Shown here: positions 1 through 55,737 of the stretch, piece by piece
How positions within the stretch are numbered: the stretch's first letter is position 1
How the letters are laid out: each line of letters starts with the position of its first letter
Assembly: GCF_018678075.1 (NCBI RefSeq)
Contig: NZ_JAHHIR010000053.1
Coordinates: forward strand, 1-55,737
Direction of reading: 5' to 3'
DNA length: 55,737 bases
From: Epibacterium ulvae
GTDB taxonomy: Bacteria > Pseudomonadota > Alphaproteobacteria > Rhodobacterales > Rhodobacteraceae
The notes under the pieces: model-generated
What the model was told of the DNA's origin: nothing
The model's database searches: none
What the model saw: the letters and a program-made list of their open reading frames with translations, nothing else
Made by a program: the position numbers and the translations under genes

Positions 1-143
1 CGTGAATCGTGCCTTCATTTGTCCGTCCTTTTGTTGGGCGGACTCTACACTAATCTGGAGGAGTTTTAGGGGCTCAGGTCAAGATGAGCATGCAGAATGC
101 TTTGCTGAAGGAAGCTTAAGGAAAAAAGCGTTAAGACCGTCCA

Positions 144-183
144 CTGCCCGGCAGGGCATTGCCCTGCAATGTCCCGAGAGGGA
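144..183 (+). repeat. Short palindromic insertion element, copy A
   Basis: Forty bases interrupt an otherwise readable transposase sequence: removing them joins CGTCCA to CGGAGACGAGAG, restoring R-P-R-R-R-E. The copy reads conserved left flank CTGCCCGGCAG, stem GGCATTG, loop CCCTG, stem CAATGTC, right flank CCGAGAGG. The flanks recur in copies B to E while the hairpin stem differs in each. The length (40) is not a multiple of three, so it shifts the frame. Confidence 0.65.
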
Positions 184-336
184 CGGAGACGAGAGATGGC
201 CATGAATGCGGTCGCGCGGCATGGGGTCAGCATTGCGTTGGCCAGCCGCACATTCCAAATCTGTGAGACGTGTTATCGCTACAGCCCAGTGCTGAGCGAT
301 GAGAACGAAGAGATTTCTGACTGGCTTGAACGTCTT

Positions 337-375
337 GCCGTTGCCTGGCAGGGCATTGAAAATGCCCGAGAAGAG
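337..375 (+). repeat. Short palindromic insertion element, copy B
   Basis: Thirteen extra in-frame codons separate ERL from NKRSWGFG in the transposase remnant. The sequence is left flank TTGCCTGGCAG, perfect hairpin GGGCATT, GAA, AATGCCC, and right flank GAGAAG. It matches copy A in its flanks but has a shortened loop. As it is in frame, it would add residues without stopping translation. Confidence 0.65.
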
Positions 376-463
376 GCAAACAAGCGCTCCTGGGGTTTTG
401 GGTTGTGTTTCTTTGTATCTGCGCAACGTTCAAGGCTATGGCTGGAACCACAAGCGTGTCTAC

Positions 464-504
464 CCATTGGCTGACAGGCGATTGTGCAGCAATCTGCCGA
501 GAAG
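464..504 (+). repeat. Short palindromic insertion element, copy C
   Basis: Forty-one bases sit exactly between the codons of RVY and RIYCELEL. Deleting them restores the expected RVYRIY junction and the frame. The sequence is left flank CATTGGCTGACAG, stem GCGATTG, loop TGCAG, stem CAATC, then TGCCGAGAAG. The right part closely resembles copy D (AATCTGCCGGGAGG). Confidence 0.7.
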
Positions 505-927
505 CGGATCTACTGTGAACTGGAGCTGAACCTGCGGATCAAGCCCAAGAAGCGCCTCAAGCGTGACAAGCCTGAACCGTTGGCGGTCCCAGGCCTGCCA
601 AACGACACGTGGTCGATGGATTTTATGGCGGATCAGCTTGCAGATGGCCGTTCGATCCGGACATTAAACGTGCTTGATGACTTTAATCGCAAAGGTCTGT
701 GCATTGAAGTGGACTTCTCGTTGCCCGCCGAGCGGGTCGTGCGCAGCTTGAACCAGATCATTGAATGGCGGGGTAAACCGCAGACGATACGGGTCGACAA
801 TGGCCCCGAATACATCAGCGGGAAGCTGATGGAATGGGCTGAAAAGCATGGCGTTCGCCTCGAACATATCCAACCAGGCAAGCCGCAACAGAACGCCTAT
901 ATCGAGCGCTACAATCGCACCGTTCGC

Positions 928-969
928 GCCTCTCATCGAACCTTCATTTCGACTGCCGTGCAGTGGGAC
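928..969 (-). repeat. Short palindromic insertion element, copy E (reverse orientation)
   Basis: Forty-two bases lie between NRTVR and EWLGQY of the transposase, where the family has a single His codon (net +39, in frame). Read on the minus strand the copy is CACTGCACGGCAG, stem TCGAA, loop ATGAAGG, stem TTCGA, then TGAGAGG. The left flank is nearly identical to copy A, so this is the same family inserted in the opposite orientation. Confidence 0.55.
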
Positions 970-1215
970 GAATGGTTGGGACAATACATCTTCGAAACAA
1001 TCGAGGAGGCATAGGATCAGGCAACCGAACGGCTCTGGACTTACAACAACGAGCGCGCCAACATGGGCATCGGCGGCATGACACCCGCTATGAAGCTGAA
1101 AACAGCCGCGTGAATCGAACGGCTGAGCCCCATTAAAAATGGGGAATTACCGGGGAAACCACGACCCAAAGGCAAAACCCCGCACCATCTCTAGCGCGAG
1201 GTCCTTTAAGTCTTT

Positions 1216-55620: not shown

Positions 55621-55737
55621 ATGGGACAAGTGCGTCACGGGAGTGCCACGCACTGTTGCCCGGCAGGCGATTTGCACCGCAAATCTGCCGGGAGGGCACG
55701 CACGCGGTCAGAGCGGCAATACAGCGATCGCAAGCTT
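55621..55737 (+). pseudogene. IS481-family transposase, partial and interrupted
   Basis: Ten codons (MGQVRHGSAT) are followed by a 47-base palindromic insertion and then, in a different frame, by codons for THAVRAAIQRSQA up to the window edge. The insertion length is not a multiple of three, so the reading frame is broken. The gene is also cut by the window end. Confidence 0.75.
55651..55697 (+). repeat. Short palindromic insertion element, copy D
   Basis: Left flank CACTGTTGCCCGGCAG, stem GCGATTTGC, loop ACC, stem GCAAATC, then TGCCGGGAGGGC. It has the longest stem of the five copies, and the outer CCCGGCA/TGCCGGG can extend it. It interrupts the IS481-type transposase after codon 10, in the same way that copies A, B, C and E interrupt the IS3 relic at the other end of the window. 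Confidence 0.7.

Follow-up and report, generated by a model that had tools for sequence, protein, structure and literature searches.

The stretch of DNA analysed here (the window) comprises 55,737 nt, bases 1-55737 of contig C32 in a draft assembly of 107 contigs of Epibacterium ulvae. A relic of an IS3 transposase fills its first 1.1 kb, and the start of a second transposase gene, which we take to be of the IS481 type, makes up its last 0.1 kb. The relic (82..1144, plus strand, the stretch matched by related plasmid IS3) is interrupted by four short palindromic blocks, placed, like the fifth below, by a covariance model and by homologues that lack them: copy 1 at 142..182 (plus strand, 41 nt, site 1), copy 2 at 339..374 (plus strand, 36 nt, in frame, site 2), copy 3 at 465..505 (plus strand, 41 nt, site 3, in a VY-RIY stretch) and copy 4 at 928..966 (minus strand and thus reversed, 39 nt, in frame). 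A fifth block, copy 5 at 55654..55696 (plus strand; the model gives 43 nt), interrupts the IS481-type gene in the region coding for the N-terminus; of this gene the window has the 5' end (55621..55737, plus strand), the contig stopping within it. All five show a CRYTGCC(N)GGCA-like left part and a GAGARG-like right part with a hairpin between them. Because the window IS3 additionally contains a 1-nt frameshift and a stop codon, both outside the elements, it has to be considered a relic.

The preliminary description had read these blocks as insertions into two transposases, and comparison with homologues in which the sites are empty shows that they are real insertions and fixes their boundaries. 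Plasmid-borne IS3 transposases from two Sulfitobacter, one Pseudosulfitobacter and one Pontibrevibacter are free of the blocks, and none of the intact homologues compared carries them as ordinary protein sequence. Site 1 is empty in four homologues (L116-L119) and filled in Roseobacter litoralis pROLI127; site 2 is likewise occupied in R. litoralis, and the E. ulvae genome has two further IS3 copies, L034 and L040, with an element there; site 3 is filled also in R. litoralis and empty in L040, and here the empty homologues run uninterrupted through VY|RIY, a junction that the preliminary description saw restored on removal of the blocks. The hairpins at these three sites of the R. litoralis IS3 are slightly different ones, its fourth site having no element; the IS3 of S. 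pontiacus carries a reversed insertion near site 1. In L034 and L040 half of the site 1 hairpin is gone, through a deletion that the two share and that followed the insertion. Copy 4 is an insertion relative to six empty IS3 homologues (L114-L119), four of which were re-checked. The site of copy 5 is empty in a homologue with integrase-core Pfam matches (L156), the net insertion relative to the empty homologue being 44 nt as against the 43 nt of the model, and nine copies in the E. ulvae genome, that of the window included, have an element at this position.

In another genome, G046, an IS3 that has inverted-repeat ends was compared with an intact Phaeobacter IS3 (82% identity over 1231 nt); the two are separated by four insertions, 38, 40, 38 and 38 nt long and each of them an element, and by no further indel. 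The trinucleotide 5' of the element (n=120) is ATC at 42 sites and GTC at 22, with C at position -1 in 99 and G at +1 in 77; in the cases where this can be seen, CRTC belongs to the empty target. Direct repeats around the elements do not rise above shuffled sequence, so that the target duplications looked for on the strength of the preliminary description did not appear. The elements are clean insertions behind an RTC-like motif, made without target duplication.

A covariance model was built from nine copies, all from the E. ulvae genome. Copies 1 to 5 score 63.7, 40.7, 54.8, 15.2 and 53.8 bits, respectively, but since copies 1, 2, 3 and 5 are training rows their own scores prove nothing, and the evidence lies in the further copies; copy 4, which stands outside the training set, scores poorly (E 0.053 in the window). 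Further copies are numerous. The E. ulvae genome holds 33 matches at E<=0.01, including the nine training rows, and 19 of 41 relatives match the model, namely 19 of the 25 that belong to the same family (Rhodobacteraceae) and none of the 16 from other families of the class. In a sample of 295 genomes, approximately one per genus of the family, the element was found in 117 (E<=0.001); only 20 candidates per genome were scored in this survey, and per-genome copy counts saturate and are lower bounds. One query copy matches 102 plasmid records, the genera named among them being rhodobacterial, as well as one phage record (60% of its length, E 0.07); Dinoroseobacter shibae DFL 12 and Ruegeria pomeroyi DSS-3 are among the strains with matching records. 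Altogether we collected at least 227 distinct copies at no fewer than 121 distinct sites, part of the collection deriving from a search of which 150 out of 164 matches were aligned. A longer or autonomous form was not seen in the collected loci, where ten occurrences of the 5' motif lack the 3' motif, some of them resembling decayed copies. The window has no gathering-level match in Rfam 15, and seven loci with copies gave a single sub-threshold Rfam match, located away from the elements. Among the titles and abstract openings listed by searches of open-access literature, none describes such elements; as far as these searches reach, the family, one of very small mobile elements, has not been described before.

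The family layout consists of a constant 5' part, CRYTGCCCGGCA, a hairpin stem and a constant 3' part, GAGAGGG. Lengths range from 36 to 45 nt (41 nt at 65 of the 121 sites); the one exception is a half-deleted copy that measures 26 nt. The stem, usually of 8-9 bp, opens with a G-C pair at 107 of the 121 sites, and its sequence differs between sites yet continues to pair: counting the best-paired copy per site, 1047 stem pairs divide into 1011 Watson-Crick, 24 G-T or T-G, three A-C or C-A and nine other combinations. The proposal of constant flanks around a covarying stem is borne out by a covariation of 0.498, compared with 0.117 in shuffled and at most 0.092 in slid controls, by 88 two-sided changes as opposed to 29.3 in shuffles, and by pairing in 98.6% of cells; these values come from the 62 rows of the 41-nt class with a bulge (54 distinct 41-nt sequences), a choice that favours structure somewhat. 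An unpaired base occurs on the 3' arm at 80 sites and is T at 72 of them. In the 41-nt bulged class a C and a G mostly enclose a purine-N-A triloop (28 of 65 sites read CGCAG), a kind of triloop that is unusually stable in DNA. The excess of G-T over A-C mismatches (24 versus 3) makes the pairing a property of one strand, an asymmetry equally compatible with folded RNA and with single-stranded DNA. Outer pairing between the two flanks does not exceed chance, and the ends of the element are not inverted repeats of each other. Guidance by RNA, which the preliminary description had also considered, is not supported by matching of stem and flanks, whose mutual identity and complementarity do not exceed those of shuffled sequences.

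By translated comparison, 108 of the 121 sites lie within 500 nt of sequence resembling a transposase or a helper gene, the best panel protein being from IS3 (57), IS5 (21), IS21 (12), IS630 (6), IS481 (4), IS91 (3), IS1182 (2), IS66 (2) or IS256 (1); the panel proteins are partly Pfam-supported and the family names partly our own labels. A first, smaller panel had assigned 88 sites, 65 of them with similarity on both sides of the element, i.e., with the gene interrupted; the rise to 108 followed the addition of IS21, IS630 and other proteins from these same loci, and a panel derived from hosts is blind to insertion sequences in which the element never occurs. Seven nearly closed genomes (1-6 contigs) have 27 sites, a set overlapping the 121, and 25 of these are beside transposases (one of the 25, L208, weakly at E 6e-5 and without assignment in the larger set), while 13 of 600 random points in G046 and 7 of 400 in the window are near transposases, the control having been scored against a larger database in which the same E limit is stricter. 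The excess of sites near transposons is therefore about forty-fold. Among the 13 sites without panel assignment, L044/L045 reads by eye as an IS3 ORFA. Within an IS21 with istA- and istB-like reading pieces (L200, G278:C1097:5400-9400) we observed six element matches, at 494+, 1475+, 1702-, 2069+, 2491+ and 2850-.

Such a distribution could arise passively if the element inserted anywhere and survived only in dispensable transposon genes. Many hosts are indeed broken transposases, and two sites outside insertion sequences adjoin accessory genes, with a RelE-like reading piece starting beside the element at L048 and a DUF3768 piece ending at it at L210. Against this, sequence outside all 100-codon reading frames makes up 5.5% of the 400 kb considered in G046, which underestimates the intergenic DNA and still exceeds the transposase-near fraction (13/600), yet 25 of the 27 sites in the seven nearly closed genomes are by transposases. 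We consider passive survival an unlikely account of the preference.

A second possibility is that a few ancient insertions were spread mainly through recombination or gene conversion between insertion sequences, with the stems drifting thereafter. Homologous hosts do have sites in common. When the hosts are at least 90% identical the stems are alike in 32 of 32 same-site pairs, as such spread would predict; at 80-90% identity they are alike in 31 of 60 and very different in 6, and at 70-80% alike in 48 of 155 and very different in 42. This divergence at shared sites implies that positions are reused or that stems turn over. Against recombination as the main route stand sites in nine labelled IS families, the S. 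pontiacus insertion that lies reversed close to site 1, and sites at which one homologue has an element while others have none, and we regard it as improbable.

Hosts carrying elements have themselves multiplied. G046 holds six full-length, gap-free copies of the four-element IS3 (L175:776-2160 and five sisters), 98.6-99.2% identical to the reference copy. Near-identical element-bearing copies also occur in G108 (99.1% over 1479 nt, with five elements) and G156 (99.8-99.9%), and in G068 an IS5-like element with two 41-nt insertions (contig C5, L156/L157) has copies that are 100% identical over 919 bp and has probably moved recently, to judge from this identity. The G046 IS3 is a non-autonomous, amplified insertion sequence; a full-length copy free of elements was not found in that genome, where a 318-nt fragment (98%) stops short of the first element. 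More likely than activity of its own is movement in trans, with a source copy that has since been lost or is missing from the assembly.

These amplified hosts bear on two further interpretations. The first sees in the hairpins either the work of a system that inactivates transposons, comparable to repeat-induced mutation but in bacteria, or a dedicated hyperparasite with a new way of recognising insertion sequences; taken together, we hold the two to be unlikely. Under inactivation, cells or a resident element would recognise insertion sequences of many families, or repeated DNA, and plant a mostly frameshifting hairpin in them. As a host defence proper, in the manner of RIP, disabling transposases or repeated DNA, the idea draws on the strong preference for transposases of unrelated families, on the four to six insertions found in single insertion sequences and on the predominance of frameshifting lengths; decorated insertion sequences have spread all the same, as the six copies in G046 demonstrate, and the constant ends of the element itself suggest a selfish element, so that we think defence decidedly improbable. 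The second is that the elements are intron-like, or are bypassed in translation, being removed from the RNA or skipped while their hosts stay active. The lack of any indel besides the four elements in the G046 IS3, and the lack of a full-length element-free copy in that genome, could be understood in this way. However, of the 15 coding substitutions that distinguish the six copies, 6 are at codon position 1, 5 at position 2 and 4 at position 3, so purifying selection is not seen in the host coding sequence and splicing or bypass is unlikely; the elements occur in both orientations, 47 on the strand of the host and 41 on the opposite one at the 88 sites assigned with the first panel, and the window relic has other lesions. 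We give this interpretation very little credence. Least probable of all is a mobile RNA form, in which a reverse transcriptase would turn a small structured RNA into DNA; the 24 to 3 wobble asymmetry would agree with it, the exact ends and the DNA target motif do not.

We favour, with a probability of roughly 0.55, a non-autonomous single-strand hairpin transposon that behaves like REP sequences or IS200 and prefers the DNA of insertion sequences. At 36-45 nt the element is too short to encode a transposase. It would be copied into the position immediately following an RTC-like trinucleotide, whatever its orientation to the host gene and with strong preference for insertion sequences; a folded single DNA strand would be the moving form, handled in trans by an HUH-like or similar single-strand transposase. 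Four traits are reminiscent of single-strand transposition as in IS200 and REPs: the lack of duplication, the 5' motif, the hairpin formed by one strand and the bulged T. Elements with unlike stems that occupy matching positions, to within 3 nt, in homologous hosts also speak for this reading. Insertion sequences may be preferred because their DNA is exposed as single strands, or otherwise marked, during transposition or copying, which is a guess, and the host would then multiply the element, a form of hyperparasitism in which the hairpins look like a parasite of parasites.

How does the family compare with known systems? The ends of IS200/IS605 elements have a hairpin with an unpaired base, and these elements insert 3' of a short motif without duplication. 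Our element likewise has a motif abutting its 5' end and no target duplication, but it has a single hairpin and no tnpA or tnpB. With MITEs it shares being non-autonomous and multi-copy, but not terminal inverted repeats or target duplication. Di Nocera et al. (2013; PMC3733652) divide REPs into a GTAG and a CGTC group. According to that account, GTAG REPs and their RAYTs (REPtrons) resemble our element in the 20-40 nt hairpin, the variable stems and an unpaired conserved tag, and are thought to be moved by a Y1 single-strand transposase; the element differs in lacking the GTAG tag (its unpaired 5' part being CRYTGCCCGGCA), in residing mostly by transposases where REPs are intergenic, and in that most genomes rich in it have no Y1. 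The CGTC REPs, as outlined there, are mostly alpha-proteobacterial, include RPE-4/6 and dRS3, and are, like our element, short palindromes without a known dedicated transposase (PMC3733652). The frequent CATC or CGTC-like 5' neighbour of the element recalls them, but where their stems open with A-T and end in a CCA tail (PMC3733652), ours mostly opens with G-C and its tail is GAGAGGG, its RTC lies in the target and its hosts are mostly insertion sequences. The Rickettsia palindromic elements, with which the preliminary description had drawn a parallel, are also small palindromes inside protein genes, but measure about 150 nt according to a MITE review (PMC10969869), while ours, of about 40 nt, occur in both orientations, mostly in transposases. 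The in-frame insertion noted for two of the five window copies stands for these copies and not for the family, in which only 16 of 121 lengths are divisible by three and most shift the frame. The family thus fails defining features of GTAG REPs, CGTC REPs and Rickettsia elements as given in these sources, and we class it among the small palindromic repeats, as a new variant. With exact boundaries and more than 100 distinct sites, the movement of REP-like palindromes that lack a transposase becomes a testable question, as does whether anything in bacteria singles out the DNA of insertion sequences as a target; some of the broken transposases of these genomes may also owe their state to the elements.

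We searched for a candidate mobiliser in the 295 genomes, 22 of which are rich in the element (nine or more matches). At the thresholds used, the Y1 transposase domain (PF01797) is absent from the E. ulvae genome and from 16 of the 22; it is present in 24 of the 295, i.e., in 6 of 22 high-copy and 18 of 273 other genomes. The element occurs in 18 of 24 genomes with Y1 and in 99 of 271 without, and most high-copy carriers have no Y1. Y2 (PF04986) is found in 8 of 22 high-copy genomes (missing in 14) and in 14 of 273 others, nine of the 22 lacking both domains; among the 25 family relatives Y2 is present in five, including the four richest in copies. IS66, taken as a control for IS load, is likewise commoner in high-copy genomes (14 of 22 versus 78 of 273). 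IS91 was rejected as mobiliser, the Y2 association being confounded by IS load and the compared IS91 ends being unlike the element; a weak element match (7.6 bits) lies just outside one IS91 end. The 5' end of the element resembles a MOBP nic site, but an origin from oriT was dropped because the copy beside a relaxase sits in an apparent IS3 ORFA. At one locus (L138, G122:C121:480-3526) a Y1 match (G122:C121:2582-2941) lies between two elements on opposite strands (1501-1547, minus; 2612-2654, plus) in a REPtron-like arrangement, one of the two at a site common to an IS5-type host. Finally, a tyrosine recombinase gene precedes the transposase at four of five IS91-type loci (L256, L259, L260 and L261, as opposed to L257), and L259 aligns with L256 over about 2.5 kb at 79%.
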